A DNA stretch of 64,000 nucleotides. Source: Pseudisothecium myosuroides. Its lineage: Eukaryota; Streptophyta; Bryopsida; Hypnales; Lembophyllaceae. The translations under genes and the position numbers were made by a program. Below the pieces are notes generated by a model, which worked only from the letters and a program-made list of their open reading frames with translations, was not told where the DNA came from and made no database searches. The stretch covers positions 27,218,001 to 27,282,000 of the forward strand of contig OX637293.1 of NCBI GenBank assembly GCA_951799445.1. Reading direction: 5' to 3'. Positions 10,919 through 63,996 of the stretch are shown piece after piece (the first letter of the stretch is position 1; every line of letters begins with the position of its first letter).

Positions 10919-11374
10919 ATGTTTCAAAATATTAGTGAACATGACTTAAAAAAGGCATTACAAAAGAAACAAAGAAAGGATAGGGCTGATAAGTGGTCTA
11001 ATCGTCGGATTATATCTTCCTATAAGAACCCAGTGTTTACCCCAACACCGGCAAGACCACCTTCACCCCAAGATCCTAATTTGGACAATTTAAACATAGA
11101 ACAAACTTTAAATTCACCTTTAGGAACTTATGCAAGAAGACAAGTAGATAATATTTTAGGCAAAGAATCAGTTGACATTATAAACCCCATTGTAGCAAAT
11201 ATTGCTGATAACCTTCTAGACCAAAAAGATAGGAATTTTCAAAAAATTCCTTATTTAACTTTTGAACGAGGACAATCTTATGCCATATTTAACTACTTCT
11301 GGAATTTACGGGGAATTCTGGACTTTGTGAAGGTCCTGTCCATCGGGAGATCTTCCCGATGGTATGTACAATGA
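10919..11374 (+). CDS. Retrotransposon ORF truncated and fused to the end of element A
   Basis: The 151-codon frame has two origins. About 120 codons (MFQNISEHDLKKALQKKQ through TFERGQS) are retrotransposon sequence. From 11,278 on, the frame reads the terminal inverted repeat and subterminal DNA of giant element A, ending at TGA. The genuine part is basic, with a Pro-rich segment (TPTPARPPSPQDP) and helical C-terminal half (LGKESVDIINPIVANIADNL). I recognise no family. The junction dates element A as younger than this retrotransposon. Confidence 0.5.
   Translation: MFQNISEHDLKKALQKKQRKDRADKWSNRRIISSYKNPVFTPTPARPPSPQDPNLDNLNIEQTLNSPLGTYARRQVDNILGKESVDIINPIVANIADNLLDQKDRNFQKIPYLTFERGQSYAIFNYFWNLRGILDFVKVLSIGRSSRWYVQ
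11278..11303. repeat. Element A left terminal inverted repeat (26 bp)
   Basis: It starts TTATGCCATATTTAACTACT and ends TCTGGA. It matches the reverse complement of 32763-32788 at all 26 positions. If the outer TA is target duplication, the element proper begins TGCC. Confidence 0.85.
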
Positions 11375-11759
11375 GTCCGTAATGCCGTTCAAAGGAGATT
11401 TAAATCGCTTTGGGATGCTAAGTGGTCTGGAGATTTCCCGGTGCAAGGAAATATACTCCTTCGGGATAGAGTGTTCGAACAAATCAATGAATTTGAGATG
11501 ATGTCAACTCCGACATTTGCTGTAAGCGGTACATTTGTATCCGGGGTTGCATTAATATGCGACATCACAGATCGGGAGAGCTCAGAAGATACTTCCCAAA
11601 GTATCACATAACACAAAAGAATGGATGAAGCAACATAATGCAATTACAGACATTTGGTAAGGTGTAATCACAGTCAGATAGAAAAGGTGGATTCGCCACT
11701 TATATAATCATTTGGATGCAACAAACAGGTGATATATAACCCAGCTAGTCCACTTCCAA
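11375..11759. other. Element A left subterminal region, no gene seen
   Basis: It holds the outermost palindrome (11342) and a half site near 11571, with no credible coding frame. Confidence 0.5.
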
Positions 11760-12242
11760 CTACATGTTTTTTGGGGCCCAAGACCAATCAAAAGGCGGTG
11801 CTATAATGTGCGGACGATCTAACTCTACAGGACCTACATCATCCCTCACATGCAACGCCAGTCGAAGTAAGTGCGGACGTTCCCAATCAAGAGGATCTAG
11901 GACAAGCATTACAACACTGTTATTCAAGAGTACCCTACGCGTCCGAGGAATGTTCAAGACAGTCTTCAGTATTGCACGACGATGGGGATACACCTGGTTC
12001 TTCCGTGGATTGTCAGACCCGGCAAAAAATAGAAACCTTGACAGAATTTCCGGCGGTAGAATACGTCGAAGAAGAGCGGCCAGTGTTGAAGGTTGCATTG
12101 CGGACCACAAACCACAGTGAGTTTCATGAACGAAATGTCGGAGAAGACCACGGAAGCCGGGCCGAATTTCGATATTCTGTGGGAGATCCGCCACACCGCC
12201 CTTCACGCAGAGATCCCCTGTTAGTACTAAGAGCATCGCCTT
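11760..12242 (-). pseudogene. Degenerate second FCP1-like HAD domain in element A
   Basis: After a likely acceptor (TTTGCAG, AG at 12243-12244) the minus-strand frame reads KAMLLVLTGDLCVKG, RPGFRGLLRHFVHETHCGLW, SAMQPSTLAALLRRILPPE and VVMLVLDPLDWERPH. These line up with the giant gene's FCP1-like domain (YYVVFDLNGVLVHR, RPNVGHLLDFVHRHANIAFW, SSMTPANVTKVLNQMLPG, VLLVDDDPL). The nucleophile motif is lost (LTGDLC for FDLNGV) and the second Asp pair is reduced. It looks like a decayed duplicate of the C-terminal module, or the end of a second gene. It lies between palindromes at 11342 and 12303. Confidence 0.5.
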
Positions 12243-13406
12243 CTGCAAAGACCAAGTAAGCCTCAGTACGCAGACATGTACATACAGAAACGACGTCAAT
12301 TGATCGTGAGATCCCCCGACCAATATGCAATACAACAGAACCGCTAATTGAAAATACGCATGGGTAGTTATTTGAAGAACAGCGACTGAATGTCTTATTT
12401 GCTGCATAGTGCAAGGAAATTAGCAATACTTCTACGGTGTCACTGCAGCCCAGAATACAGCACTAACAAGGGATGCAGATTTAGAATTCGCGTCAAATAC
12501 AAAAAAAGGTTTAGGGTGACATACTAGAAGACCGAAAATACTCAAGCAAAGGAAGTTACGCAGCAGAAATTCAATTGCATTCGATTGAAGCAACAAAAAT
12601 GGACATTACATAATCCGCCTAAGACTAATAATTCGATGCAAGGGAAAATGATCGTGAGATCTTCCGATCAAGCCGAAGACAGAGGACAAAATTATCAATT
12701 TCAAATCCGTACTTCAGCAAACCGGAACTGCAGGAGAACTCCCAAACAAACAGTAGAAGCACAACTACAACTTCACTGTCATCCACAAGTACAAAAACAC
12801 AAGACAATACAAGGACGGAAACAACATTTCAAAGTTCACACGTCACGTCGTATCGTGCGATCTCCTGATGAAGCTTGCCGCGCAAGATGATGACGCCCAG
12901 TGTTAAAATCTAGTGAAGTGTTCAAAAAATTCCACTCTTCCGAGTAATATGATAAACAATTTCAGAACCAAATTTAGATTAAAGCTGCAAACCAAGAGTA
13001 AGAAAACAATTCTAAGTGAGGGTCATGCTCCGGAAATGCATTCACATTAGATTTAAAAGACAAGGATAAATGCCTAGAACAGTCCGATCTACCGATAGAA
13101 TCCACTTCCACGGTATACCATTAGATCTCTAGATGTGCATGCACGCGGATTAATAGTCAAGGTCGAGGTGATCCCTTCAAACTCATAATTATCTTAATCA
13201 AAGGCATTTAGGAAAAAAATTTATTTTCACATTTATTACGAGGCAGAATCAATGCCTCCTACAAACAAAGAATGTCCAGTATTTCGAAAATGCATTTACA
13301 ATATTTACAGTATGTTCAAGAGTTTTAAGCTACAAGCAATAATATGCACGCCAAAAGGAGATTGTGAGATATCACGATGAAGTCCGTCGAGGAAGAGAAA
13401 CCAAAA
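12243..13406. other. Downstream arm of element A, palindromes only
   Basis: Palindromes at 12303, 12651, 12852 and 13361 are the only organised feature. The one at 13361 lies about 30 bp beyond the giant gene's stop codon. Frames of up to 101 codons here have no protein-like character. Confidence 0.5.
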
Positions 13407-16400
13407 CTAAACTACTGCCCTCAAAATGTCAGAGCCCGGTCTGGTCAACGGGACCGCTGGTGGCAGACCATTGTGGAGCGGATGCTTCTTGACATACGCC
13501 GGCACAGCTTCCTGTGACTTAAATTGACCTCCGAGCCAAGGACTGAGCACCCCCACAAGGTACTGGTTCCTCCAGTCCCCATCAAATTTGTGGGGGAAAA
13601 TGGCGCTATGACAATCATTCAGGAGGTTCTTAAGTGGATCGTCATCAACGAGGAGAACATTCTCGATTGACCTCAAACCCAGCTTAGTGGCGAAATGATT
13701 TAGATCCTTGAGGAAGAAGGGCCTGTCCGGGTGATTGGGGTCTCTGTAGGACGACTTTGTGCAGTCTTCCTGCGTGAGAACAGGCACGTCCTTCGCCTTA
13801 ACAGACGTCCCCGGCAGCATTTGATTCAATACCTTCGTCACATTTGCCGGTGTCATACTGCTCCAGAATGCAATGTTTGCATGTCTGTGCACAAAGTCAA
13901 GTAAATGACCAACATTCGGTCGAAGTGTTACGACGCGTCTGTTCAAATCATTGAATGACCTGTGAACAAGAACTCCATTAAGGTCGAAGACCACATAATA
14001 CCGCCGCTTTTCTACCTGATTCGACGACTTCGCCACCGGTTCAGCAGGCACTCGAAAAACTGCAGAATACAAGAGAAGCACAGAGTCAGTGACCGGCCAA
14101 TTCAAGATTCGTTATCTCGTATGTACATTGACAATAATGTAGGCATGTTACCTGCGGGAGCTCGGGCGCTACAAGATGGCGACCCTTCCGCCCTCCTTTC
14201 GTCGCCCAATTGTCCTCTTTCCCTCTCGCCACCGCTCACTGATCCTTCCCCCCTCCTCTCGACGAGCATTTGCCCCTTTCCTCTCTCGTCGGCGCTCACT
14301 GGTCTTCTTTCCCCTTGGTCACCACTGAAAGATCCCGGCTCAAGGTCGTCGTCGCTCGAAGCCACCACCACCCTCCTCCCTCTAACGCCGCCTTCCAATG
14401 CCTCCCACTCTTCGTCTGCATCAGGTGGATCCCCTCCATCATACACTGCACGCGGACCATCCTGAAATATCCATTTAAAGACGGGCTTGTAAAGGAAACG
14501 GTTCGCTCGCCTTACGGATTCCAAATGAATATCCTTGTTGTTATCGAGACGCTTCTTCCTATAGTGGTTTAGACTCGGTAAATGACCAAATGCTCTCATA
14601 CGATCAACAAGACAGAACTTCATTATTTCTTCAGCCTCGTAAGGTATGGCCTCTAGCACTTCGTCAGAATGGCACTCACCGTCATCAGGAACCACCTCTC
14701 CTGCAACCTCCAGTGGAACACTGGAGGCCAGTGAAGCAATGTCGACAATCCTCGCCCGCCCTATCACAGGTATACTCTTCCTTCCAGGAACAGGTTTGGG
14801 ACTCAGGGGGACCAAGTCAACAAGGGTGTCGTTCAGTACAGCAACCGTGATGCCCATCGGCGGGAGCAATCGCTCTCGCACAGTCGTGGGATCCCCCGAC
14901 GAAGACAATGCAACCACTCCTTCCTGATGTTCACCCCCCTCGCTCTCTGCCGGATCGCCATGATGAATTGAGACCACTGACTCTTCAACGATCGTGGGAT
15001 CCCCCGATCCTTCAGGTCCCGGTGTTCGGCCTTGGTCATCCCTCCCTGCACCACGTCGAGAGACAGCTAACACAGTCTCCACAGGTAAAGCATGGCCCGT
15101 CGTGGGATCCCCCGATCCGAGGTGGTCATCATCCCCCTTTGACTCTTTCCTCCCCTCGCTGAGGTCGGCAGCATCCTCCCCGCTCTTGACCAGTGACTCG
15201 TTCGTCATCGTGGGATCCCCCGATGCTGGTTGGTGAGTGTCTTCCAGGGTTAATAAGTCGAGGTCCGGAAGCTGTCTGTCAGCTCCTGAAGCACGAGATG
15301 CCTGCGCATCCTCCTGTTGCGGCTGAGTCGACTTCACAGGCCTCGATGGTAACGGTCCCAAGGCACAAGTTAGAAGCGCTTCTGCCACGACTGATGCTTC
15401 GGGATTGGGACTCCCAGTCGGCTTCGCTAGCGACTGTTTGCGCTGCACCAACGACTTACTTGGAGTCCACTTGGAGGACCCCCCCTTCCGATTCTCGAGT
15501 GCTGTCTTCCGCGCTCGCTTGGCCGCCTTTGTGCTCCCAGTATCCATTGCGGTGTCGGGTTCCTTGACCGGCGTCTTAAGCAGCTTCCTCTTGGATATCC
15601 TTGGGTCCGTTAATTGGATACCTGAATTCACTTCGCCTGACGACCCGCTGGATATTGGAATTACAATTCGTTCAGCTGGTGACGGCTCTGGAGTACTCTC
15701 ATGCTCCTCTGCCAGATCTGCCAGCTTCGCCTGCGCCAAATGAACTTCGGGAACATCGTCTGCATCCTCTGCTCCACTTGGCGCATCCATCAGCTGCTCT
15801 TGCCGGGGGGAGGGAGTCGGAGATTTCGCCTGCGAGAAAGGCAATATCCCACCACAATTGAGCTCAGTTTGCCCTCCCAGATTAGCATGCGAGAGATATA
15901 CGCTGCCCAACGTCCGGAGATATCACGATGGTTCAGCAAATAATGCACACTAACCTTAGGGTGCTCAACCGACCTTGTTCCTGAACCCGGTCTGTGTTGG
16001 GTGATGTCTTCGAGTACAGCATCGTCATCATCACTCTCAACTTCCTCGTCCTCGTGTCCGGCCTCCGGAAGAGGAAGGGGTGCCGCTTGCGCATGTTTGT
16101 CGTCCCAAATCTGCTTGGCGAAGACCTGACTTAACGTCTTTGCTTCCGCTGAATCGACAACTTCCAGCACTTTACCACCTTCCGAATACTGAAATACAAC
16201 AACCGGAAATTAGTGACATTCAAATCCCCGAAATCGAAATGAGATTATCAAAAGAACAAAAGAAAAGACAATCGTTGTAGTGCATACCAAGCCCAGATAT
16301 GTGAACTCCGGACCCCCGTTGACATTCACAAAGACATAGTCGCTGCAAGCTAGTCCTTCGAATAGAATCAACGCACTGCTGATCTTCAGATACGGCATCT

Positions 16401-19400
16401 GCTGCCGACGCCAGTAAGGGTAGTCGTCCGGCATATCTTCCGCCTTGTACACTTGAGTCAGGCGGTCCAATCCCGGGAAGAAGCTTTTGAAGCAAGTCCG
16501 CCGCTCGTGCTCTTCGCTGTGCCCAAAAATGAAGACAACAAAGACATTGTACCCGTCTCCAGCCGGAGCTTGAGGGAAGAAGTCTTCGGGCCCTGCCATG
16601 TAGTTCACAACGTGCCAGTCCCACAACCTAGCTTTCACTTCCATCCTTCGTTTCTCTATGTGAGCCACAATCATGTGGAACCCTTCGGCATCTGTGAGGA
16701 GAATGGCGGCAGAGCGGGCTACAATTGTCTGGTCCTGCGGATCATAGTACTCCAGAGCGTCAAAGAGTCTCTTCAACTTCCGCTCTTCAAGAATTTTGGC
16801 GCGACACCCGCAGGACGTTGACTCGAACATGAACCAGATGTAGAGGTGCTGCTTCTTCTTTCCCCTCCACGCTATGACGTCCCCTGCCGCCAAGGTGGCG
16901 CTGATGTCCCAGCTGCTTTCCTCCATGGTTTTACAGAGATAGTGCTCTGAAAAACCACGTGCATTTGCCTGCACCGATTCTTCCTCCGCCGTCAGCTTGA
17001 AGTACGACTCCCACATTTGGATCACCGACTGCGGAAGGTCAGCTGGGTCGAACGTCCTGTTGAGATTTTTCGTCCGAACCTGCAACCACTTCTTTCCAGC
17101 AGGGGTTTCCATTGCCTTGTTGACCCACATCTCCACATCCTCGTGCTAAATGTTCCTTTCCGTTGCAAACTCGACCCACAAAGAGTCCGGGTAAGGCTCG
17201 TACTCCACCCTCCTCGCCGGCAGCAGATGACCCTTGTAGTGTGACAAGAGTTCGTTCTTCATCGCCCTGACCAACCGAATTTTGGCACCGGCGTCTGCAA
17301 GAGAGATGATGTGTTTTCCACCTCTCTGTGATTTCGACTTTGCGACGGAGGTCTTCATGCTAATAACCTGGGCTTCGACTTGATCTGCAAGGAAATTGAT
17401 GTCCTCCGGTCTAAGTCCGTAAAGGGGCTTGAAGTCGTTTGCCGCCAACGGTTTGCGATCCGTACTCCCCGATACATCGACCAGCCCCGCCGCGTCGGGA
17501 AGGAGACCTGCCATGAATCTCTCCTCTATCTTGATCCATCTCTCAACATCAGCGTCGTTCTCCAGGAAGAGTAGAGGGATTCTCAGTTCGGCGATGTCTT
17601 TCGCCTTTGCTCCCGCAAATATTGTTGCCACCGACGGCTGAAACGCCTGCCAACCAAAGGAATAACAGTCAGTACGCGATCCGTAGACAGACCACGTGAA
17701 CACAAGAAGTCCAATAAACAGTCGTGCGATCCCACAATCAGTCAGTTACCACGAGGAAGTCGTTTAGGCAACAGGCAGTCGTGAGATATCACGATGAGCC
17801 ACTATCTTCTACATGCACAATTTGAAAACACCACGCACTGAACCGCCAACACAAAAAACTAAACTAGCGCTATCTGGTATTTCATATGTTAAAGTCGTGA
17901 GATATCACGATGGCTGCACTCTAACGTAGAACTACCCCTTATCGCAAATCCAGGACTTAGTCGTGGGATACCACGATGACGAGGTTCTAACGTAATGAAG
18001 GTCTGAGATGTAGTGCAGGACCATCGGGAGATCCCACGATGGTCAGGTAGAGCGCACTCTGATGACCCCCCAAAAAAAATATGTCAACTCTAGCAGCATT
18101 CTTACATTGTACTCTACTGAGTGCGATTTGCCCAATATTGCTGGCTGTGGACTTCCCATACTTCGCCACTTGATTCTTGCGTTTAGCAGCTGCTTCGTGA
18201 AGTTCTGCTCCTTCTGTTCGCCGACGACATCTTGGTTCAGCGCCCGCGAGAAGTGCACTAGGTCTCCGTGGTGATCTTTGTCCGTCCACACAGGTAAAAT
18301 ATTGAAGGTGGAGGCGAGCTTCTTGTCCTTTTCGGGAATCACACCAAGCCTAATCAGGTCCTTGAATGCCTGGACAGTGTGTTGGCCCCCTATAATGTAG
18401 TAGTGCGTCTTGGGGTTTTCAAAGATCTCCTTTTTCGGCGCTTGCTTCTCATAGTACGACACTACCTTCGCCGGGCCGTAAGGTCCCGCTTTAAGGGAAA
18501 GCACTGTTATGACTCTGTTCTCCGAGTCATAATCAGGTGTGATTCGTGCCTTCCTCGTCAGCGAATCAAGCCGCTCTGCCTGAATTCCCCTGTACACGAG
18601 CAGTGCTACAGGTGCCTGGTGCAGATAGTTGTAGTGCACGCGGATGAGCTCTCCTTTGCTGTCACAGACTGGTTTCCTGCCCCATTTGTACAGGCCACCA
18701 AAAGAGTTCTCGTACAGGGTCCTCATCTTATTCATCTCTTCCGGTGTCATCTTCTTCACGTCTGCCTCCCCTAGAGCCACAGCCCTGTGAAGCGGAAGCG
18801 GGGTTTCCGATTTTTTCTTCTTTTCGGATGTCCCAGCTGCGGCTTCAACTTCGTCCCCGGGAGCTCCAACTGCAGACTTCCTCTTCCTGGTCTTCTTTTT
18901 GGGGGACGGCGTGGGAGCAACCGCTGTTACGGCTTGCGGGGGAGCGTTTGTATCTCTTAAGTCTTCCAGGATTATGTCCCACTGGTTCTTCAGCTCCTTA
19001 GGCTTCCACCGAGGCTTAGACGTGTCCTTGCACATCAGATGTGATCTTGCAGTCACAGACTCGCAAAGAGTGAGGCTGAACTTCGCGTAGTCAAGGATCA
19101 GCCCAAACGTTATGATCTCCCCGGAAAGGGGAACCTTCTCCTCTACAACTAGGAGCGCTGTGTCGTCGTCAAGCCCCTTCATTTCTAGTACCTTCAGTCC
19201 GGCAGTTGGGTGCCCCATTGTCCCATTCACCAGCGTGGGAAGAATAGTGGCGGAGCCGTCACTCTCTGCTTTCCAGGCGATTCCCCAATGCGTAATCTGC
19301 TCGTCGCATCGGAAAAAGGCTTGTGGTGGATGTGGACCTGTGTACTCCAAAGACGTAATGTAGCAGTCGATGAAGGTACCAAGCTTCCTTGGTGTCAGTT

Positions 19401-19429
19401 CTTCTGGACCTTCGTCGACTTGCATTTCA
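13407..19429 (-). CDS. Giant ParB-like / methyltransferase-like / FCP1-like fusion protein of element A
   Basis: I read exons at 19429-18106, 17646-16288, 16188-15955, 15829-14152 and 14059-13407. All introns are GT-AG and all phases join. From the ATG at 19425 this gives about 1,747 residues with one in-frame TAG (17146-17148). Residues 1-160 match element B's N-terminus in position; 177-183 is KKKTRKR, a likely nuclear signal. About 235-410 is ParB/Srx-like, with YYIIGGQHTVQAF at 342-354. About 441-950 resembles a beta-class amino-methyltransferase (NVNGGPEFTYLGL at the FxGxG position, degenerate), then an acidic linker (EDEEVESDDDD). Exon 4 is low complexity with SGDPT repeats. Exon 5 is FCP1-like: FDLNGVLVHR near 1556, RPNVGHLLDF, FWSSM, VLLVDDDPLKN. 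The second catalytic Asp is Asn. ParB-methyltransferase fusions are known in phages and bacteria; the FCP1 addition is new to me. Confidence 0.75.
17647..18105 (-). other. 459-bp intron of the giant gene carrying five palindromes
   Basis: The donor is GTAAG (18101-18105) and the acceptor GGCAG beside 17646. Palindromes start at 17721, 17778, 17894, 17960 and 18023. The matching intron in element B (53371-53509) also carries palindromes, of B's own type. Confidence 0.7.
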
Positions 19430-20458
19430 CTGCAGCATGGTAGAAAGAGATGTTAGTTTCTACATTGTCCGATAGAGCAGATGGTGGTGCGATATTATTC
19501 TCGTTCTAACTTTAATTTTTATCCTTAGTCGTGGGATCCCACGACGGATGTTATGAAAGCGAAGGAATGGTTTCGTGATCATTTTGATGATCTGGTTTCA
19601 CAAATTACCGTTGTCGTGGGATATCACGATCGGTTACATTCACGGACAGTAGTGGGCAGGTGGTTACTGCATCTCATCTCACTAACTGAAGGCGTCCCGG
19701 CATATGACGACGGCACCAAATAACATAGAATGGATATTGGAATATCTTAGAAGGTGATCGGTGATGATCTGTGAAACTACTGTCTGTCGTGGGATCCCAC
19801 GATTGATTGTTCACATAATCAGCGCTATTTATTAACGCGCCTTCATCTCAATTTCTCTACCCACGCTAGACTCTCTCGTCGTGATTTCCCACGACGGTTT
19901 AGTACTTGAATGCTCTATGTAGGTGGCCTTCTAATTGTTAAGTCTGGGTCAGACGCGGTCCTTACTATCCTCCATCGAGGGATCCCACGATGGGTTACTA
20001 ATCCATTGCCTGGTCTGTGCCTAACCTGTGGTCTGGGTTTAGATTGCAACTTCACATCTTATCATCGGGGGATCCCACGATGGGCCACAAACCCTAAAAC
20101 TCGTGTGGCCGCGCAGTGGTGGGCGGCTAGGGTTTCAAGTCAGGGATCCTACGATGCTCGAATCTACACAGGGACTGCCTTGTCGTGGGATCCCACGATG
20201 CACGGTTTTAGGGTCACTATCTGCGGTGACAGAGTCACGTACTCATTACCGTGTGTTCTTCTCGGCATATGTACTACCGTATTTCTCGGCCATGTTTATA
20301 ACAGCCACCATGACAGAGGCTCTACTACCCTCGTTTTCAGCAAAGTGCGTACCAATGCAATTGCAAATAGCCATACCCTAATTATTGGTATTGTTTATAA
20401 CGTAGACATTGCAAGCAAGAAACGGAAAGTAATGAGAATATAGTTCAAAGTAATTTAC

Positions 20459-23250: not shown

Positions 23251-23269
23251 ATCGACATGCACTGTCTTA

Positions 23270-32762: not shown

Positions 32763-32788
32763 TCCAGAAGTAGTTAAATATGGCATAA
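32763..32788. repeat. Element A right terminal inverted repeat (26 bp)
   Basis: Its reverse complement is identical to 11278-11303. The flank beyond it (TAATTCC) begins with TA, compatible with a TA duplication. Confidence 0.85.
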
Positions 32789-32828
32789 TTCCATCGTTTG
32801 TCTAATTGTGAAATAGTGAATACTTTAA

Positions 32829-51100: not shown

Positions 51101-54100
51101 CACCGAGCATTTTTCAGGACTTGTGCAATTCAGGTCGACTCTTGTTTTCAGCACGAAGAAGAGTGCCTCATTTCAAGTCGAGCCGATCTGAAATAACATC
51201 GTTCAAATTAATAAAAACTGGTACCCTGCAGAAGTTTAGGTGAATACGCAGTAGTTTAGGTCGGTACACCCTAGTTTTCAACTAATATCAAAGACAACAA
51301 AAAAATAAATCCCCGACACTCATAAAACTACAAAATTATTTGTGGTGAAGTGATTCAGGTCGAGCCGACCTAAACTAGTATAACCTCCACCAAGTAAGAA
51401 GCTCATCCAGTCAACCCATACATACGCTACCCCCATGCAGGTGATTAAGGTCGAATCGACCTAAACAACCAAAGTTGGCAACCGAATCAAAAAAGGAAAC
51501 CGCTAAAATTCATTTAGTAAACCTGATTTAGGTCAACTCGACCTGAACGGCAGCAAGGTGTAAATCATAACCATGAAAGTGTCACCACATAATAAACAAT
51601 CTAGACAACCAGAACCAGCAGACTGTAATTAGGTCGACCCGACCTGAATTGGAAAGGTTCTCCAACTGAGTCTAGGAAGATGACTAACAGACAATATCCA
51701 TAACGGTAAGCAATCGGGGCATGGTAAGACAAAATACGTAACAAAAAACAAGAAACCTCTAATACCATATTAGGTCGAACTGACCTAAATCAGGAAACAT
51801 AGTAAAGGGGTCTCAAATAATATAGCAAAAGAGCATAGTAACCTTGCAAGTAAACAAATGACTACAATGAAAGACGTCAGCAACACTTCAGGTCGAATCG
51901 ACCTAACTTGCTAATGTCATTGTCTGTAAACAGGATGGAAGCTCAGGTTCCAAAACTCGAGGCCTTCTACAAGCGTGTAGAGAGATCAGAGAGTGAAGAA
52001 GATGGGGACGACTGTGACACTGACGGAGAGTACTGGACGTTCCAAAACCCCGAGAAGATGGAAAACTGGAGTTTAAGAATGATACCATTTTGGAACCTCA
52101 TTTGCTTCTCAGCAAAATTTACGGACGGTACCGTCTACTACTTGGTCTCGTTCGATGAGAAAATAAAAGACATTGTGCACGATAGTGGTTCCATGATAAA
52201 AATCCATTGTGTCACCGCTCAAATTGGAGTTGAGGATAAAGATCAATACCACTTTACATTCGTCCTTGATTCCTTGAAAGTGCACTTCAACATCTCCCCG
52301 TTCTTGGAGTCCCTCGAACCAACGGATTACAGATTGAAATCCCAAACCTGGAGAAGAAGGTTGACGAAAACTTCTTCAAGAATTCCTCCGGGACACCCAT
52401 CACCGAAAGGAATCTGTCCAAGCGCCTGAGAACGATCTTCGTCGAGTTTGCAGTCTTGGGGGCGAAGTTGGATATCAAAAGAAAAGGGATGGCTGCCCGA
52501 TCCGTATCCCTAGACAGTCCTAGTCTTGGAGAAGGGCAGGGGTCATAAGGTACTCCGGGGACTCAGAACAGTTAAGGGAACAAAAAAGCCAAAAAAGCAC
52601 AGACTCCTCCCACAGGAGCAAAGAAGAGTAGCTTGGCGGCGTTCCCGGCGAAGCAAGTTCCAAGTAAGGCACCGGACGCCTCCGCAGTTGGTGAGCCAAG
52701 TTTCGCGTCAGCTGTCACCCAGGTGCCGGAGGCTCACGACCCAAACAAAGAGCATGACTACAAGCTCTCCGCTGAAGCGTACAAGAATTATTGGGCAACC
52801 TGCGATGATGCGTATGTCTTCAAAATAGACAAAAAGAAGACAATCTCAATTGACCAATTAATTAAGCAACCGGCACAACTGAACATGCGCAGCCACGAGA
52901 CGCGGCTGGTCAAAGACTTGATGCACTACTATTGGCACATGCCGGACAAGTCCATCAAGCAAACACTATGTGTCATGCCAGTCGGTCTGGAGGAGAAGCC
53001 CAGGAAAGAAGACTGGGACTCAATAAAAATGAGTAACTTCTACCTAATCAATCGGCAGCACAGCGTGTCGGCTAGCCACATGATGGTGGAGAAAGGCTTA
53101 GACAAAGAGATTCTGAAGCACTTCCGGCAATGGGACTGTTATGTCGTCTGGACGAAAGATGACGAGAAGCTGAGGACGATCTCTTCTTATTACAACAGAG
53201 TAAATCACTTTCAGGCAATGAAGCCGTCGTGGTCTACTAATATATTGGGTGCCAGGACAGTCTGGGAGAATATGGGGAGCCCAAAAAATCCAAAAGATCT
53301 CCCCCCGGTCGGGACGACATCAAACGTACAGAAAAACGCGGAGAACAAAAGAAACAAGAAGAGATACAAGGTGAGCAGTTAAGGTCGAGTTGACCTAAAT
53401 ATTCATGTGTCCTGTCAATCTGGTTCGTTAAGGTCCATGCGATAATCAGGTCGGATCGACCTGAATCCTAGCTGATGCACTCGTCGAATTTCTCGTGAAC
53501 GATTTGCAGGAATTTGTGACGGCAATGAACAACCATTTCGCCATGTTGGACGTTGTCAAGGCTGTGAGCTCCCAATTTGTCACTTGGGACTCGTAGAATT
53601 ATTTCTTTTGAAATTTGCAATTTAAAGTTGATAAAAATATAGAAAAATCCATAAAAAGAGTATAGAACCGAAATAGGGTTGTGTCATACCCATTATAGTA
53701 TTTGGTCTAGATTTGTGTTTCTTACTTAGAATCCCCCAAACCTTGCCTAAAAATAGTATAGAAATAACGGAAAGGTTAGAGTTGGAGGATTCGAGTCACA
53801 CAGCCCCAAAAGGGCTAAATCCCACCATGAATGTGGCGATTCATGGCTAGGTCGGTCCGAGGGATCCACAGCGAGGCCACTAGGTCGGGTCCTAGAGTTA
53901 GATTTAGAATTCCCCATTAGATCGACGAATTCCCAAAATCCCGATTGTTAGCATGCAGGAGCCACTCACGCAAGACCGGGCCCGTGGAGGAATCTACAGC
54001 CCAAGGATGGTGTTCTAGGGTGAATCCCATGCCAGGAATCCAACGGCGAAATCGGTTCGCCAAGATTCCTCCACCTGCAGAAGATTCCCGCACCGTCGCT

Positions 54101-55309
54101 AATTCAAGGAGATGGCCAGTTTTGAATCTCCATTGACCAATCGTGCCAGGTACGGAAACACACCCGCACGTCTTTCATGCGACTCCCTGAGAGGTCACGT
54201 GAAAAATCCCGGCATCTTCCGACTTGCAGAAGAACCTTTTTCCGGGTGGTCAACCCTCCTAACCTCCAACGGGAATTTCATGGAAATTACCCAGGTTACA
54301 ATAAAATCTCACTAAAAATTAGACTAGCTTGTTTTATGTTAATAATGCACTCCGTGAAGTTTCACGACATTCCGATAGCGGCAAGTACCCAAACCGGCGA
54401 GATTCCTCGGGAATTAACCACGTGGCGGGGTCTCCACCACGTTGACCGGCATTCCGGGACCATACGATGGCGAAACGAAGTCAACCAAAAGTCCTTCCCG
54501 ACTCTCTCGCACCTACCGGAGACCCTAGGCTATTCACATTTCTCAAAATAGGAGACCCCCAAGATCTAGGATTTTACCACGATTTGGTTTTTAAACTAAA
54601 TTAGCCTACGATGGGTTTTTGGCCTCGGTACGGGGGACAGGGGGATCTAGGACTAAACACGGCGTTCTGGATCCAACGGCGCAATCCGTTTGGCGATTGG
54701 AGCTAAACTCTAAAAGTTAGGATGTTGGTCCAGCATAGATGGTAGAAGTAGAAATTTAGGATGTAGGATGAAAATCTTTGAGGATGAGGATGAAAATCCC
54801 CGTTGATAAGGTTACCTTAGAACTCTAGAGGGAGGGGTGAGCCCTTGGAAACCTATATAAGGGCCCCATTTCTCTCTCTAGAAGACCCCCAATTCTTGTT
54901 TTGGGTTCGTGGGTCCAAGTTATTTTGGATATTTTGGCGTTTCAAGCCAAAAACCTCTACGGTGTTTTCGGAGCACTTTTGGCTCCATTGTTGCTTATTT
55001 TCAAGCTTTGAAGGTCCTTGGGGGTCCTTCTACCTTGCTTTGTGTACTCTTTGTGCAGTATTTTTGTACTTTGTTGTAGTTGGAGAGCCTCTCTCTCCCC
55101 CTTGTACGTGACGTGATCTAACTTGTGAAGTTAAGAGTCTTTTGTTTTGTATCTTGCACTAATCCTAAAGTCACCCCCCACCGTACCTTGGTGATGCCGC
55201 TTTGGGGGGCCTTTAGCGTGTGAGCGTTGTGTTGCCACGTGATCTAACTTGCCAGTTTTCATTTCCTTTGTAGTTTTTTCTTACACCCTCTTCTAAATAT
55301 TCCCTTTGT

Positions 55310-55760
55310 TGAGTGGACCCCCCTCCGGGACGGCGAAGCTTTGGACCTCCTTGTACATGTGTTGCTAAATTTCTTCCAAACCCTCTTCTAATCTTCTCCT
55401 TGTTGAGTGGACCCCCCCCGGGACGGCGAAGCTTTGACCCTGTGTGTGTGTTTTCTTTTAGAGTTTAGTTTTCCCTCTTCTAAAGTCTCTCCCCTTGTGT
55501 GGACCCCCCTCCGGGACGGCGAAGCTTTGACCCTGTGTGTGTGTTTTCTTTTAAAGTTAGTTTTCCCTCTTCTAAAGTCTCTCCTCTTGTGTGGACCCCC
55601 CTGGGAAACGGCGAAGCTTTGAACTAGTGACAAAGTAGAGTCCTAAAGCGTGTGTTAAAAGTGTAGACGGCGGAGCTTTGAACCCCCGGGGTGTCAAGAA
55701 GTCCTAAAGTTGGTGTTAAACCCAATTTGACGGCGAAGCTTTGCATCTACCCCGTGTTTA
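55310..55760. repeat. Tandem repeats containing GACGGCGAAGCTTTG
   Basis: Units such as GTGGACCCCCCTCCGGGACG followed by GCGAAGCTTTGACCCTGTGT repeat about four times with a ~95-bp step. Two or three looser copies follow (GACGGCGGAGCTTTGAAC, GACGGCGAAGCTTTGCAT). Confidence 0.8.
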
Positions 55761-55924
55761 GTTCCAAAGTCTAGTTTCCAAGACCTTTGTGGAAACCTCC
55801 AGAGTTTAGCTTCCAAGATATGTAGGGTTCTTTGCATTTGTCTAGAGTAGTGTCTTCAAAAGTTTTAGGTAGTTAGTTGTTTCCAAGGTCTAGTAAGTTT
55901 AGTACCTCCGACGGTTATTTCCCC

Positions 55925-56175
55925 CATTAGCCTTAGCAAAAACTCAGTCTTAAAATAGCCTTAGCAAAAATCCAGTCTTTTTAGCCTTAGCAAAAATCCA
56001 GTCTTAGATAGCCTTAGCAAAAAATTCCAGTCTTTTTAGCCTAGCCGAAAATCCAGTTTTTAGCCTAGCCGGAAAACCAACATACAGCAGCGACATCAGG
56101 ACCAGCATACAGCAGCACATCAGGACCAGCTACAGCAGCAACATCAGGCCAGCATACAGCAGCACCATCGGGAGC
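55925..56175. repeat. Short repeats AGCCTTAGCAAAAATCCAGT, then CAGCAGCACATCAGGACCAG
   Basis: About six copies of the first unit (~25-bp step) are followed by about four of the second (~28-bp step). Both lie inside the insertion. Confidence 0.75.
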
Positions 56176-57040
56176 CAAAAAAAAAAACATATTAAAAAAT
56201 TAATTAATTATTTTTAATTAATTGACCAGCCCAGCCAGCCAGCCGGAAGCCAGCCAGCCGGGAGGTGGTGGGCAGGCTCGGGGTCCAGCACCCAGCCAAA
56301 TCGGTCGCTCTTCTTTTTGAACTCAAAATTTTTTGGTCTTTTGGGGTTCTGATTTTTTGGGGTCTCTCAAACTAACTCAAAAATCAGACCTAAAACACCA
56401 CAAAAATGTGGGACTAACCTATTACTAGCTAGGGAAGGAGTAGGATTAGGGTCTAAACCAAAAAGGGAGAAGGGAGAAAAGAGCGGAGCACCACCGTACC
56501 TGCACACAAATTTGTTTCACCACTCACACCTACACACAATGGAAGGAAATTAGGGGGAAGGATGTGTTATAGGAGTGGAGAGGAGAGAGACGATAAATAG
56601 TGCCTAGCTAGGAGATTAGGTAGGAAATCTAGAAGAACTCCTTGCAACCGTTGGGAGGAGGATTAGGATGACACAAAGCAAAGTTGCGTAAGAGGGTAGG
56701 AGGCTCATTTAAAACTTCACGAAGTTTGAGACTAGAGCGTAAGACCACCATCACCACGGTTGGTGGAATAGTTCAAGAGTAGAAGGAAGAGGAGGAGAGA
56801 AAGAAAAGAAGAAGGAAATGGGGGGAAAGGGTTAGACCATCATACTTGTAACGTTTTCTTTTCTACAACTTAAGCCGTGGGCCTTGAAAAAAATAAAATA
56901 AATAAAGACCATAGCACAAAAATAAAAGAAGACAACCGCGAGTGGCCACCATGGAGCACGAGGACGCGCATGTGGACGGGGATGACGTCATTTCCGACAC
57001 TAGCAGTAACGAGGTGGGTCACTAAACTAATCCTAGTCGT
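56176..57040. other. Middle of the insertion with short ORF start
   Basis: ATG at 56,951 in CCACCATGG context reads MEHEDAHVDGDDVISDTSSN and then meets GAG-GTGGGT, a possible donor. No following exon could be assigned. Confidence 0.3.
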
Positions 57041-58260
57041 TTTTCCCTAATTAGCACTTATTTTCCTAATCAGCCCTTAGAGCGTGATTAGCATCCGAGA
57101 TTAGCGCGAATTAGAAGTTTAGATTCAAAAGTTGATAGATTAGGAATAGAGGTTTCCGAAAACATCTTATAATTAAGATTTGACCGTAAACTGACCGCGT
57201 TAGGCTAAGTTAAGCGGTAGGGGGTAGAACGGAGGAATTTTAATTAAAAGGGAACCACAAGAAACAATGGACGGAAATTAGGATTAGATTAGAGGGAGGA
57301 TTTAGGATTAAAATTAAAGATCAAATAGCAAGTTAAAAACCTAGGATTAAATTAAGATTTTAATTAGGGAAGTTAAAATTCAAAAGCCAAAAGTGAGAGT
57401 TGACTTTGGGAAGTAAAAAGTAGAGTAGGAAGTAGAAGTCACAAGTAGAATCCACTTAGGAAGTAGATTGTTGAGTTAAAAATAGAGCTAAAATTAGAAG
57501 TCAAAACCCTAGAATTAAAAGTTGGAATTAAATTTAGGAGGATAACATTTAGAGCTAATCTTGGATTAAAACGATAGGATTAAATTTGGAAGTAGAAGTC
57601 AAAAGTCAAAAGTCAAAAGTTTAGATTAAACTTAAAGGTTAAATTTTAGAGTCAATTAGGGGAGTAAAAAGTGAGAGTGAAAAGCTAAAAGTAGAAGTTA
57701 AAAGTTAGAAGTAGAAGTAAAATTTTAGAGTTAGTAGAAAAATCTAGAGTCAAAGTGAAAACGTAGAGTCAAACCTAGAGGTTAAAATTGGGGATTAATT
57801 TTAGAAGTAAAAAATTAGAGTTAAAAGTCAAAAACCTAGAGTTAAATTAGGAGTAAAAAATCTACAGTAAAAAGGAAAAAATTTAGAGCTAACTTTAGAG
57901 GGTAAATCCTAGAGTAGTTTAGAAATAAGAACATAGAATTAGAGGTGAAACTTAGAATTACCTTAGAAGGTTAAAACTTGGAAGTTAGGAGTTGAAGTGG
58001 ATTTAGAAGTAAAAACCTAGAGTTAAAAGTCAAATCCGTAGAGTTAAATTTAGAAGGGTAAACTTAGAATAGAATAGAGGAGTAAAAACTTAGAGTTAAA
58101 AGTTAAGCCTAGAGTTAAATTCCGAGGATAAATTTCAGAGTTAAATTAGGAGTAAAAACCTAGAGTTTCATTTAGAGGTTGAAGATTAGAGTAAGAGTTA
58201 AACTTTAGAGTTAGTCTTTAGAGTAGAACTTCTCGGTGGAGTCTTAAAATCCCACGATAG
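57041..58260. repeat. Purine-rich degenerate repeats (AGAGTTAAAAGTCAAAAGT type)
   Basis: More than 1.2 kb consists of variants of TTAGAGTTAAAAGT, GGAAGTAGAAGT and CCTAGAGTTAAA in plus orientation. It is strongly strand-asymmetric (A and G rich) and non-coding. Confidence 0.7.
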
Positions 58261-61200
58261 TCTTAGAGGTTCATGGAAGGAACATAGGGGTTCCTCTTTT
58301 TACATAGTTAAGGACGTTAGAAATGACGCCAACTACTCAGTCTACCCTCGACATAGGATAGATAGTTAGGAAGTTAGAGTTTTACCATTACCCCTGAGCA
58401 TTGCAGTTACCTTGTGAGTTACTACATGCATTCTAATTATTCGCTGCCATCCACGACACTTAGGAAACGTTAGCAAAAAAGATCCATTGCTTGGAAGGCA
58501 CAGTGGACCGCGCTCACATCACCCCCATATATTAAAAAATGTGGATAAAGGCATAGAACCTGGTCGGTGTTCGCTCGATTACCAAGGGTGGGTAATCCAG
58601 CGCCCACAAAGGCCCAAAAGGCCGGTAAAGCAAAAGGCGCGGAGGAGAAGCTCAATATTAGAAACGAGCTCAAGATAATCACCGCTCCCCCCGAAGTCTA
58701 CAAGATATGGAGCGAGGTGATAACCAGATCCGCACACGGGAAACTTCTTGACCCTGATACGTTGATGAAATTTAACGAGAAGTCCAGCTAGAAGTCAGAG
58801 AATGGCAACCGGACGCACGAATTCTTCAAGTGGCTAGGGAATCTCACTTACAATGATCTCACCAAACTCGCCAAGCACCTTCTCCATGAAGACACAAAGC
58901 CAATAAACGAGAATTACCCTAAGGTGACAATCAAGGCTGTCACTTCTGTTCTCGAGAGCTGCTACACTCACAAGGAGTGGGTCAAACGCCGGAAGCGCAA
59001 GTACCTTGTCAAAAGGGAACTGCATTTGATTGAACCAGAGCTTGGGTTATTGAATGGCTTTGACGAAATCAATCATGAGAAGTAGAGATAGTTCAAACGC
59101 AGCCGGAATATTACAAGTGCGACGATGAACGTCTTGTTGGAGCAGCTGGGAGTTGACTACTAGATGGAGGCCAAGAACACTAGGGCCAAAAACAAGTCGG
59201 CTGAGGAGATGTCGCCGTACGCCGCAGAATTCTTCAGAGTGTTCATGGCACGGCGGTCTAACTTCGTTCCCACAATGTCTACCGCGCACTACCGGCCATA
59301 CAACATCGTGAATGAGAAGCACGCAAACTGGCCAAAAGGGGTGTGGACGGAGACCACGGCGAGCAACATCAAATTCGCAGTGGTGGACTTCCGGTACACG
59401 CCCCTCATGGCCAACAAGGGTAAGGCCACGCTGACGATGCCATATTTCTTCGCCGTGATGAAATCCTTCCAGGAGAAGAAGCAGCCGAGGCTAGAAGAAA
59501 TCAACGCGTGGCTGTTGATCTGCTCGGACTTGACTGAGCAAGCACAGGCTCTACACTACGTGCAGAGCAATGAGATTCTGAAGGGCTTCAAACTCGATTA
59601 TTCCGAGTACTGTCCGGCAAAGGCTGAGAGAATGGGGGACTATTCTGCTAACAATAGCAAGGCAATGGAGAAAGTCTACCTTGCATTCCTGCAGAACCCA
59701 AAAAACACAAACCTCGTAATACCAAAGCCCGCGTACTACGCTCCCGACACCGAAGTGTTCAACCATCCTCGGGCATACAATAAAGTGGAGTACAGAATCC
59801 ACAACACGGAGCTGCGGATGGAGCTCTTCTTAGGCTTATTGAGAAGATTCTGCATTGTCAGGAGTAGTGTGCTGTCGATGTTTGCAGGATCAAAATTTAC
59901 GTGCGTTGCCATGGTAAGCTTCATTTAGGTCGGGTCGACCTAACTTGTACAAGCCTGACGACGTATGAAATAATCTCTGCTGTATGTCTCTTTAGGTTGG
60001 GTCGACCTAATTGTACATCTGTGACTTGTCGGTTGCAACCACTGTACTTTGTGTTCAGGTCAAGCCGACCTGAATAGTTACTTCTGCATGTCTCGAGTAC
60101 TTACTTGTCTTGCACTTCTGCAGATGAGTGGACTTGTGTGTTTGTTGTGGGATTAGCTGAGGAGTCGGACCAGTGGACGTCTATCGCCCAGACGGCCAAG
60201 TACCTCGACAAGAATGACTTCCTGGCAGTTGGGTATTTCGTGGACGAGGAAAAATACAGCAGAAGACCTAGTGGGTCCGCAACACCGTCCTCTAGGAGAA
60301 GGCGCAAGTCCGCTTGGGACAAGCCCAACACATCGTCAAAGAAAAAACAGGTGTTGCACAACAACAGTGATGACGATGAGGACGAATCGGAGGAGGAGGA
60401 ATTGGATTATGGGCCCGACGACATCCCGGACGAACAGTTCACTCCTGTGAATCTGTCTCAGAGTGTTCGGGGGTCAGCATCGGATTCGTCGGCCCAGCCA
60501 ATTTTGACGCAACCGTCTTGCACGCCGACGCCTGCAACCTGACGTGGGAAGAGGAAGAGGAGAGGGATGGTGTACGATGATTGGGAGGACGAAATTGCTC
60601 AACTTAGAGCAGATCAGGTAAACGATCGACTCGATTCATTGAAAATGTACGCGGAGACGAACAAGAGAATGGATGATATTTCCGACCTGCTGCTGAGTTC
60701 AACGGCGAAGAGTGAAAACCAATTCACGGCGCTCATGAACCAGCTTGCAGGTGTTCTGCCTATCAACTCAGCAATGCCGGCTCAAGAGAATCCGCAGCTG
60801 GCGATCCAGGCTCCTTTGATTGCACCAATATTTGGAGAAGGGTCATCTTCGCAGGGACGTTTTAGTGTGCCTGTTTTTCCAGTTCTTCCAGTACTGCCTG
60901 CTCTGCCTGGTCCTACTCCTGCTCCTCCTGCTTCTGCTCCTTCTACTGCGGCTCCCGGAATTGTTACACCTCCTCCTCCAGCTCTTCCGAATGAAGTCTG
61001 CCCCAACACCCCTCCGCCGCCACCGGAGACTGACGTTGTAGCTGGTGTAGAAATTGCAGTGGTCCCTTCGTCTGCAACATCCACCGTGCCAACGACTACA
61101 GATGACGCGTCTGCATTGCCTTCTCGGGAAGATCAACAGAATTCTCTGTTGCCTGGCCCAGACATGGCTGCAGGTTTTCACAAATAATCACTCGATGGCA

Positions 61201-62520
61201 TCTGTGTAGTTTTAGGTCGACTCGAGCTGATTTGTAACATAGTGTGTATATAGTTGTAGACTTTTAGTGACCGAAATCTAATGTTTTTATTCAGATCTGA
61301 TTTTGGACAGAACTGTAAAGCTCTACATTTTGACCATGATTTTGTAATCGAAAAGCTTTACTTCAGGAATTAATATACTTAGTTCTTACATAATTCGTTC
61401 TTGCATATTCCTTCATCGCAGGCTCAATCAAAATTGTAGATCTGCCGGCATCTGCCACTTTGGAAACTCCACGAAGCCCTCTTCCACAATCTCCCATCAA
61501 TATTTCAGAGGATGACAATCCTGTTGCAGTGGTTCATGCCGCGGGCCCACTTCATGGTTCGCATCCGCAAAGTAAACTGCCGGATGAGTCGGCCATTCCG
61601 ACCGCCATGCTCATGGAGGTGCTGATTCCAGAACCCGCCGTAGTCGTACCTAAAGTTTTCGTCGACCCGGCTGCTTCTTCTAGGAGACAGGTAATTCACA
61701 TTCTCATTGGCTTCTGACTTCATTACATTTTTGTTTTTTTCTTTCTCTTTGTTTCGATTAAGCCAACAGGTTAATTTTTGTTCCTTTGGCGTGAAATCCG
61801 AAATGTGTCAGTGCAGCATAGTAACTGGCTGCACATTTGTTCCTTTGATAGCAGGGATCGAGTCCTCCTTGTCTTCGTGGAGGAACATTGAGGGAAGTCA
61901 GAATTCCATTGACGTCCAGGGTGACAGAGAAGTGGCTCAACGTTGTCTTGGACCTGAATGGAATTCTTTGCATCTGCAAAGATGCAAAGTCCAAAGGGTT
62001 ATCTAAGCCCATTGGTGAGTCTAGGCAGCCGCACTCTGCCACGATTCCTGCGATTGTCGGACCTAAGGCAGTGTTCGTACGGCCAGGGTGCGCACAGTTC
62101 CTCCGAGAGTTAGGACAGATATCATTCGTGTCGGTCTGGAGCTCCATGAAGAAGTCCACCACCAAAGAAGTCAGCTTGTACCTCTTCGAGGATCAGGAGA
62201 AGCCTTTTCTTGTTTTAGCACAGGACGCCTGCACAACGTTGAAGTGCAGGGACGGTTTTGGTCACGTAACGACATACAAAGAGCCAGGCACAAACAAGGA
62301 ACTTTTCCTAAAAAAACTTAGTTATTTGTTCAGCGGCTTGCGGGGTAATTTCACGGCGGAAAATACCATTGTAGTAGACGACAGCCCAATTAAGCAAATA
62401 ATGAACAAGACGGAGAACGTAATTCTCCCTGACACTTGGAGTCAAAGAGGAAATGGTCCGAAGGACACGTTCCTCCTCGACGTATTCCTGCCCTGGTTTT
62501 GCCGAATACACGGCGCTTGA

Positions 62521-62991
62521 GATGGAGGGTTGAAATCGTTTCGGGAAAACAGTAAGGGAAAGATGGGGCGGCAAATGCTCTGCAACGAACGCAACCGTCG
62601 AGAGTACAATAGACTTATGGAGGTCGTTAGAATGTCCTCTAGTTTAAAATAGATAACGTTTTAAGGTTCCAGTGTTTAGGCCCAACCAAGCTTGGGGGCA
62701 ATTAGATCGCGGCCTTTTTTTACGCTTTTGCAGTTTAGATCGCATCGACCTCATCTGTACATAATTCTGATGCGTTATCTTTTTTCATTTTATAGCCACC
62801 ATTTTTGCAATAAATTGAACGGGAAAGCTTTATCACTACAATAATGACTATGTTGGTTTAGGTTGGGTCGACCTAATGTGCTGAGCTGGTTTGTCAAACT
62901 GATTTTTTTACATGGTTGTGGATTGTTCTTCTTTGTGTGAATCTCTCTCCCTGCCTCAATTGAATGTGTTCTAAACAACATTTGCTTCCAG
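62521..62991. other. Spacer or intron downstream of the FCP1-like exon
   Basis: It contains B palindromes at 62734 and 62857 and ends in an acceptor (TTGCTTCCAG, 62982-62991). It could be intergenic or an intron leading to the next exon. Confidence 0.4.
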
Positions 62992-63624
62992 AGTTTTCGC
63001 ACCGCAACCTCTCCACTGCAAGAAGCGAGTCTTACCAGCAAAGCGTCAGTGGACTCTTTCCTTGGCTATGGCCAAAACGCTATTTTCAGTACAGGGAACT
63101 TCCTCTGCTCCGCTGCTACGGCCAACTCAACAATGGACTTCTCAATAAAGCCCATAGAAGACGGTGTGGTCGACAGTCCCCCAAATGGAGCGCTCCCTCT
63201 TCCGAAGTCCTGCTCTCTGTCTCCTCTTAGGTTCAGAGATCCTAGTAGTTCGCGAATGTTGCCTTTGGCCTCGGAGAGAGTCACGCAACGAAGACTTTAC
63301 GAGGTTGCCGAAACTCCAGTCTCCATGACTAGGGTGATGTTAGAGCCCCCATCAAGTGATGGACTCGCTGGAGGCCCCTCTATGCCTTCGCCAGTCCCTC
63401 GTAACCGTGTCCGATCTCTAGGTGTGCGGAAGACCAAGACACACGAAAAAAATCCGCTGAGACCTTGTCCTCCTTCTGTTTACGATATGTGGGATCGAAA
63501 GTTCCTAGAATTGCAGAGGCTCCAGTGGTTTCGAGAATGCAAGGGGGGAAATAATACTGGGTACAGTCGTGGACCGGAGATGTTGAGGGCAAGGGAGTTG
63601 CAGAAGAGTAAATCGCACATATAG
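62992..63624 (+). CDS. Unknown Ser/Pro-rich ORF or exon at the right end of element B
   Basis: From the acceptor at 62991 an open frame of 211 codons ends in TAG at 63622. It reads SFRTATSPLQEASLTSKASV, then DSFLGYGQNAIFSTGNF, later RFRDPSSSRMLPLASERV, MTRVMLEPPSSDG, RPCPPSVYDMWDRKFLELQ, RLQWFRECKGGNN. It is Ser/Pro-rich with a basic, Trp-containing C-terminus. No family is recognised. Element A has an FCP1-like remnant in the matching position, so the two differ here. It may be a final exon whose upstream partner I could not identify. Confidence 0.45.
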   Translation, partial: SFRTATSPLQEASLTSKASVDSFLGYGQNAIFSTGNFLCSAATANSTMDFSIKPIEDGVVDSPPNGALPLPKSCSLSPLRFRDPSSSRMLPLASERVTQRRLYEVAETPVSMTRVMLEPPSSDGLAGGPSMPSPVPRNRVRSLGVRKTKTHEKNPLRPCPPSVYDMWDRKFLELQRLQWFRECKGGNNTGYSRGPEMLRARELQKSKSHI

Positions 63625-63976
63625 TGTCTGTTCATATTGTAGATTCAGAGTCTATACATACATGATAGCATTGTGCAGGGATTAAATAGAGCTCAACGCT
63701 AGAGTGAATCACACTCACGGCAGTTACATACATTTTCATGGTCTTTTTGTGAATCCAAGTGCAAATATATATACCCATTGTATGAATCATTCATACTTCA
63801 CTATAAATACAACAATTTTTAGGATGTATTTCAATTTGGTTGATGCATCTTAGATGATGTCTTGCAATTTTAGTTTTATATGCTTATGTTGTGTTCAACT
63901 TATTCGGGTTGTGGATGCTTTGGGATGAAACTTGGGCCAAAATGAAAACCTCGGCGACTCCCAATTCGGTGGAAAA

Positions 63977-63996
63977 CTCTCATTTTAATGAATATA
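63977..63996. repeat. Element B right terminal inverted repeat
   Basis: The reverse complement, TATATTCATTAAAATGAGAG, matches 39652-39671 at 19 of 20 positions. Only four bases of flank remain in the window. Confidence 0.7.

Follow-up and report, generated by a model that had tools for sequence, protein, structure and literature searches.

According to the available portions of the reports cited here, Sola elements are DNA transposons with a DDD transposase, 4-bp target duplications and short inverted ends of 11-1124 bp, some members exceeding 15 kb (PMC10741241), and Sola1 is present in Physcomitrella (PMC9033089, table). Giant Sola1 elements have been described in the brown alga Ectocarpus, including the 21.5-kb family Sola1-1_Ec32, which encodes, on the strand opposite the transposase, a 1104-residue protein with ParB-like and N4/N6 DNA methyltransferase parts; green and red algal transposons are also known to carry similar proteins, and the authors suggested that such proteins bind and modify their own transposon (PMC12477816). 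In VANDAL transposons, silencing is countered by VANC, which binds short family-specific motifs in non-coding DNA (PMC5735166). Here, we describe two elements, A and B, in a 64,000-nucleotide stretch of the moss Pseudisothecium myosuroides (assembly GCA_951799445.1, contig OX637293.1, positions 27,218,001 to 27,282,000 of the forward strand; hereafter the window, in whose own numbering positions are given). They are members of two families of 21-24 kb DNA transposons with one common divergent two-gene plan, in which a DUF7869 gene, predicted to encode the transposase, lies opposite a giant gene with ParB-like and FCP1-like parts. Palindromes that differ between the families stand before both genes, a feature absent from the earlier note on this DNA.

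Two transposon families with a common divergent plan

Pairwise comparison of the two elements revealed that the DUF7869 proteins are 39% identical, the ParB-like pieces 28% (E 1e-5) and the FCP1-like pieces 23.5% (E 2e-11), and that the order of these three parts is mirrored between A and B. The mirror-image plan and the low protein identity under a long-conserved architecture, both claimed in the earlier note, are thereby borne out. In Pfam scans, DUF7869 (PF25273) was found at 29277-31310 in A (E 3e-44) and at 40983-42374 in B (E 1.5e-41), and NIF/FCP1-like (PF03031) at 13410-14111 in A and 61852-62517 in B (48.2 and 53.2 bits against a cut-off of 21.8), all above the Pfam cut-offs. The satellites claimed for both elements are real, with central arrays of 183 bp x 8 in A and 177 bp x 8.6 in B, and share an exact 28-mer; the telomere-like runs in both elements are short. 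The parts of A are as follows (dN/dS, ratio of nonsynonymous to synonymous substitution rates; Srx, sulfiredoxin).

11278-32788: element A, bounded by a perfect 26-bp inverted repeat
11278-11303, plus strand: left terminal inverted repeat, a perfect match to 32763-32788; the true repeat starts at 11280 (ATGCC...)
32763-32788, minus strand: right terminal inverted repeat, a perfect match to the left end
13407-19425, minus strand: giant gene, 1747 codons in a phase-consistent GT-AG model
19425-18106, 17646-16288, 16188-15955, 15829-14152 and 14059-13407, minus strand: the five exons of the giant gene, with four introns
18106-19425, minus strand: ParB-like exon, with 14 database relatives and a ParB/Srx fold in the predicted model; dN/dS 0.17
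16288-17646, minus strand: exon 2, called methyltransferase-like, a label unsupported by the sequence of A; dN/dS 0.24
13407-14059, minus strand: FCP1/NIF-like C-terminal exon, PF03031 at 48.2 bits; dN/dS 0.33
22085-24759: central spacer with an inverted repeat and the 183-bp satellite
27927-31310, plus strand: DUF7869 gene, putative transposase, exons 27927-29207 and 29373-31310; 1072 codons

The earlier note had asked whether such genes are paired divergently throughout the genome, and this was found in both families. Among A-type DUF7869 copies, 58 of 66 are accompanied within 60 kb by a ParB exon on the other strand, against about 0.5 expected by chance, and 52 of these 58 pairs lie at 8.7-15.3 kb, where about 0.12 would be expected; six further neighbouring pairs are non-divergent. 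In the B group, a divergent ParB exon lies within 40 kb of 67 of the 91 DUF7869 copies (about 0.5 expected by chance), as counted with 114 of the 144 ParB matches, the last and weakest being left out, and two neighbours on the same strand were met. Grouped by identity to B, 21 of 28 copies at 83% or more, 33 of 50 at 74-82% and 13 of 13 at 70-71% are paired.

That A is mobile follows from its many copies, inverted ends and target duplications. The 26-bp end pattern has 221 forward and 222 reverse matches in the 388-Mb genome at two or fewer mismatches (control 0/0), and as its first two letters are variable, the true end is ATGCCATATTTAACTACTTCTGGA (24 bp). The A transposase exon has at least 66 matches: apart from that in the window itself, 65 copies at 96-99% identity were counted, and as 66 of 1102 candidates were scored, this number is a minimum. 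All ten other copies that were picked for having both ends among the listed matches are flanked by a 4-bp target duplication, which is AATT five times, and then ACCT, AAGT, TAAT, ATAT and CAAT. A TA duplication, the first reading of the A ends, is ruled out by these ten copies. The window's own copy is without a duplication, its flanks being TCTT and AATT. Four of the same ten copies, read whole, are 21.2-22.4 kb long and colinear with A. Furthermore, A-type ends, with three mismatches in one of them, bound two short copies (217 and 236 bp) that contain no palindrome; their flanks match at three of the four duplication letters each (AGTT/AATT and AATG/AATT).

B, as it stands in the window, has decayed and belongs to a second family, which has sister subfamilies; the earlier claim of two giant mobile elements holds in this form. 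Its parts are listed below.

39652-63996: element B, bounded by a 16-bp inverted repeat
39652-39675, plus strand: left end, TTCATTAAAATG after TATA
63981-63996, minus strand: right end, inverted repeat to the left end
40179-43049, minus strand: DUF7869 gene, putative transposase, decayed, with in-frame stops near 42375 and 40980
45266-46787: 177-bp satellite, 8.6 units
51935-62517, plus strand: giant gene, decayed, with several in-frame stops
52576-53379, 59164-59925 and 61852-62517, plus strand: ParB-like, methyltransferase-like and FCP1-like parts of the giant gene

The 16-bp inverted repeat alone could be due to chance, but it sits beside a TATA/TATA duplication, which was seen in one copy and is itself palindromic. 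About 5 kb of repeat-rich extra DNA (53371-58590) separates exons of the giant gene of B. Of 28 matches that belong to the B family (83% or more identity), seven have an open frame of 947-960 residues with no stop inside the match. One contig (C11) holds 30 of the 91 B-type transposase matches, many with stops; its coordinates were seen only to about 16.3 Mb of the 388 Mb, and it may be heterochromatic or resemble a sex chromosome.

The intron lengths of the A giant gene are kept in 20 other aligned copies (one has 460 instead of 459), six of which are fully intact, with an open frame and all splice sites. In the window, a premature TAG occurs at 17146-17148, where 19 of the 20 other copies have CAG and one has GAG. 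Substitution rates, computed against the majority of 18 of 21 copies (three of other length were left out), gave dN/dS values of 0.17, 0.24 and 0.33 in the domain exons and 0.81 in the linker, indicating that the giant protein is under purifying selection for its domains. The structural model predicts a ParB/Srx fold for the ParB-like exon. In NIF/FCP1-like phosphatases the catalytic motif is DxDx(T/V). Both FCP1-like pieces read DLNG at this motif, the second Asp being replaced, so that the domain is perhaps inactive; the FCP1 exon had no match among PDB sequences at 0.001. The whole giant protein matched none of 7989 candidates from the protein database at E <= 0.001, the search words being drawn from its first 500 residues. 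As for the methyltransferase-like label, it is weak by sequence: PF01555 was matched below the cut-off in B only (E 0.019, 15.4 bits against 26.7), the Pfam scan gave no match for the long open frame of the corresponding A exon, and a catalytic motif is unrecognisable by eye. The published ParB-methyltransferase gene of the brown-algal Sola1 element lends the label support (PMC12477816). On the 3' side of the A giant gene, a possible second and more degenerate FCP1-like fragment lies at 11763-12419 (E 0.012 to the FCP1 piece of B, without a Pfam match).

In the transposase gene of A, internal stops are absent from nine of 11 other copies, and all 11 have CAG at the position of the window's TAG (29058-29060). 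Modelling predicts that DUF7869 is a DDD transposase with an RNase H fold and a BAH- or chromo-barrel-like C-terminus. The fold calls for this model and for the ParB-like exon are based on a second structure aligner together with motifs, Foldseek by itself giving nothing at E <= 0.001. Named DUF7869 relatives come from Physcomitrium, Ceratodon and Riccia; among viral contigs, no DUF7869 relative was found by single sequence or by alignment. DUF7869, which had no mention in the literature searched, thus gains a predicted role as a transposase.

Family-specific palindromes and their change between subfamilies

Element A contains 35 palindromes of RTCGTGGGATCCCACGAY at four or fewer mismatches and B contains 22 of TTYAGGTCGRNYCGACCTRAA. 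A has none of the B type, B has one of the A type, and the rest of the window has neither; shuffled sequences gave mean counts of 0 to 0.2. The clusters at the promoter sides, whose windows were set after the sites had been seen, and the cluster in intron 1 are the following.

19528-20199: seven ATCGTGGGATCCCACGAT-type palindromes (four or fewer mismatches), promoter side of the A giant gene
27086-27766: seven palindromes of the ATCGTGGGATCCCACGAT type, promoter side of the A transposase gene
17721-18040: five A-type palindromes, intron 1 of the A giant gene
43124-43897: seven TTYAGGTCGRNYCGACCTRAA palindromes, promoter side of the B transposase gene
51172-51907: seven TTYAGGTCGRNYCGACCTRAA-type palindromes, promoter side of the B giant gene

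The promoter-side palindromes are spaced at 82-141 bp in 19 of 24 gaps. Further palindromes are found in introns and 3' regions, and four A palindromes at 14883-15227 belong to a 108-bp repeat in the coding linker, where each is translated as GDPT. The four other A copies read whole contain 33-35 palindromes inside and none in the flanks.

In the B group, the palindrome changes between subfamilies by symmetric half-site substitutions. The B motif occurs at 354 genome sites with at most one mismatch (control 0), and a pattern with any letters but the B ones at its two mirror positions occurs at 200 (control 0). Among the 50 listed of these 200 C-type sites, 48 are symmetric C..G, one is A..T and one is mixed; sites with only one B letter lie outside the reach of this pattern. 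Comparison of sites with transposase copies used the 50 listed of the 354 B-motif sites and the 50 listed of the 200 C-type sites. On three contigs (C1-C3), where the exact sites are listed in full for both motifs, and with a distance limit of 20 kb, the B motif accompanies 3/3 and the C motif 0/3 of the copies that are at least 83% identical to B, and sister copies at 74-82% have the C motif in 6/6 and the B motif in 0/6. On five contigs (C1-C5), 6/6 B copies and 0/8 copies of the 70-71% group have an exact B motif at a distance of 12 kb or less. Sites near listed transposase copies form two clusters, one lying about 0.7-1.6 kb and the other about 7-14 kb upstream of the transposase fragment, a layout that would be expected of the two promoters. 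In paired copies of the 74-82% and 70-71% groups, identity to B is about 45% for the ParB exon and 70-82% for the transposase fragment, implying that the putative reader evolves faster than the transposase.

Outside the moss genome, a public contig filed under a cyanobacterial metagenome-assembled genome (L001), probably a eukaryotic contamination, carries an intact DUF7869 gene with six sites on both sides at four or fewer mismatches to the C motif. These sites are intermediate, with G at position 16 in 6/6. Two contigs with DUF7869 relatives of 24-28% identity (L002 and L003) have none of the A, B and C motifs. On the latter, a freshwater contig, an 89-bp tandem repeat with the 24-bp palindrome CTTGTGTTCGTTTCCGAACACAAG lies at 4972-5149, beside the distant DUF7869 gene.

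Reader of the palindromes and rival explanations

Decay of the A copies points to silencing by the host. C>T changes per site and copy amount to 0.0153 in CG, 0.0131 in CHG and 0.0038 in CHH contexts, and the stops counted in the 18 giant-gene copies (n=14) are C>T or G>A. Cytosine methylation would be expected to leave C>T chiefly at CG and CHG, so that these elements are probably methylated by the host. Where host methylation is likely and an element protein is under selection, a sequence-specific counter to silencing would be expected, as with VANC in VANDAL. On balance, we therefore consider it probable that the giant protein reads the family palindromes before both genes as a self tag against silencing. 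In the proposed mechanism, the DUF7869 transposase would cut at the element ends and insert with a 4-bp stagger, and the giant protein, of the ParB-methyltransferase kind, would bind the palindromes of its own family before both genes. Bound there, it may modify or open the chromatin, which would protect the element from silencing, and only relatives with a matching palindrome tag would stay expressed. A tentative extension, to which we give rather little credence, is a ParB-parS-like self-recognition code, in which every subfamily would have a palindrome of its own, read by an equally private and fast-evolving ParB-fold protein; after loading on the palindromes, this protein would spread over the element in the manner of a ParB clamp, marking it as self and shutting silencing out; new subfamilies would then arise by a symmetric palindrome change together with a reader change.

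Several points weigh against the self-tag reading. The reader is one that we infer, and the N-terminal part of the transposase or a host factor could read the palindromes instead; moreover, bacterial ParB partition proteins, which are CTPases with ParA as partner, recognise parS through an HTH and not through the N-domain. The palindromes of A are barely better kept than their flanks (97.6% versus 96.3% invariant), and the number of seven depends on the cut-off, since at five or fewer mismatches eight and nine are counted in A and seven and eight in B. Concerning the subfamily code, the C-type pattern is unable to reveal mixed G..G or C..C sites, all five 70-71% copies on contigs C1-C3 have neither the B nor the C motif within 20 kb, and one of the 13 copies of the 74-82% group on C1-C5 has an exact B motif no farther than 12 kb away. 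Among the listed sites, 18 of 50 with the B motif and 19 of 50 of the C type lie more than 20 kb from any listed transposase copy. Position 6 of the six L001 sites is C in three and G in three, and five of these sites are also within four mismatches of the B motif.

The same palindromes could be read differently. An autorepressor function, in which the giant protein binds them to limit copy number and is selected since host damage is prevented, would agree with their operator-like presence at both promoter sides, and ParB relatives such as KorB are titled repressors in the structure matches; we regard it as possible but unlikely, because selection would hardly preserve a pure repressor in every amplifying copy and the decay spectrum suggests host silencing already. 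It is less probable still that the palindromes are the transposase's own binding sites for assembly of the transposition complex. They do lie inside the element and not in the flanks, and the N-terminal half of the transposase is uncharacterised, but they cluster at the promoters and not at the ends, and the two short copies that share A-type ends without any palindrome suggest that the palindromes are not needed for jumping.

Promoter sites for a host transcription factor, with no element-encoded reader, would account for the enhancer-like arrangement of seven per promoter at mostly 82-141 bp (19/24 gaps). Such a factor would have to serve coexisting subfamilies with different palindromes in one genome, and the divergence of the ParB exons to about 45%, while the transposase fragments remain 70-82% identical, also speaks against it, so that we hold this explanation to be quite improbable. 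Lastly, the predicted ParB fold, the palindromic sites and the 177-183-bp satellites in both centres recall a segregation or episome system of the ParB-parS kind, in which the satellite would play a centromere-like role. This seems very improbable indeed, as the copies are chromosomal with target duplications, the length of the satellite region differs between copies (alignment gap columns), and a ParA-like gene is absent among the Pfam matches of the scanned open reading frames, although no search was aimed at ParA.

Neighbouring elements and comparison with known systems

Other elements occur near A and B in the window. Between A and B, a DUF659 (hAT-like) element at 34444-39452 has CCCGAGGTCGCC-type repeat arrays at both ends; it also contains, at 37302-37886, a 195-bp coding triplication. 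An element of about 930 bp with 18-bp ends TTAACCCCTAAAGGACCG lies at 32825-33756, 36 bp to the right of A, and has relatives in the left part of the window at about 5790-6722. Adjoining A on the left, an open reading frame with a CCHC zinc knuckle and its neighbour at 9747-10833 appear retroelement-like by eye.

We infer from the 4-bp duplication and the predicted DDD transposase that A and B are Sola1-type transposons, an assignment supported by the Ectocarpus plan. Compared with Sola by description only, A has a 4-bp duplication (10/10), a predicted DDD transposase, a size of 21.2-22.4 kb and 24-bp ends. Two other superfamilies were rejected: the TG...CA ends of 40-270 bp of Ginger (PMC10741241) differ from the 24-bp ends of A, which start with ATGCC, and the 8-bp duplication of Zisupton differs from the 4 bp of A. 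The elements share with the fungal TET/JBP-carrying transposons (Zisupton, Kyakuja, Dileera and others) the nature of a DNA transposon with a gene that likely counters silencing, but the duplication length, 8 bp in Zisupton as described there, and the gene content are different (PMC12730594). The predicted fold of the ParB-like exon resembles that of bacterial ParB, Noc and KorB, whereas the moss protein is eukaryotic, and the fold is placed inside a 1747-codon protein and fused to an FCP1-like domain.

As in VANDAL elements (MULE), whose VANC proteins bind family-specific short motifs in non-coding element DNA that differ between related families, A and B have private motifs. The VANC motifs are, in the portion of the report available, 8-9 bp long and arranged in same-orientation arrays (PMC5735166), in contrast to the 18-21-bp palindromes, DUF7869 transposase and ParB-fold protein of the moss elements. 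Neither a MULE transposase nor a VANC protein is among the Pfam matches of the scanned open reading frames, and A and B resemble VANDAL/VANC in working, not in membership.

The closest counterpart is the Ectocarpus element. The earlier note knew of no described superfamily with this gene set, a claim that does not stand beside the same plan in the 21.5-kb Sola1 element. By description rather than by sequence, A and B are like Sola1-1_Ec32 in being giant elements with a ParB-like gene opposite the transposase; they differ in that the moss giant gene has 1747 codons (against 1104 residues), an FCP1-like end, a hardly recognisable methyltransferase part and subfamily palindromes. The available text on Sola1-1_Ec32 makes no mention of an FCP1-like end or of palindromes (PMC12477816), and in the available portions of the literature searched, an FCP1-like end and subfamily-specific palindromes on such elements were not met. 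The divergent ParB-methyltransferase/transposase plan is therefore already known, and the FCP1-like end and the family-private palindromes are new. A palindrome code would make self-recognition and escape from silencing by transposons directly testable; what the algal ParB-methyltransferase proteins read on the elements that they are suggested to bind is unstated in the available text (PMC12477816), and the moss palindromes offer a candidate code for it.

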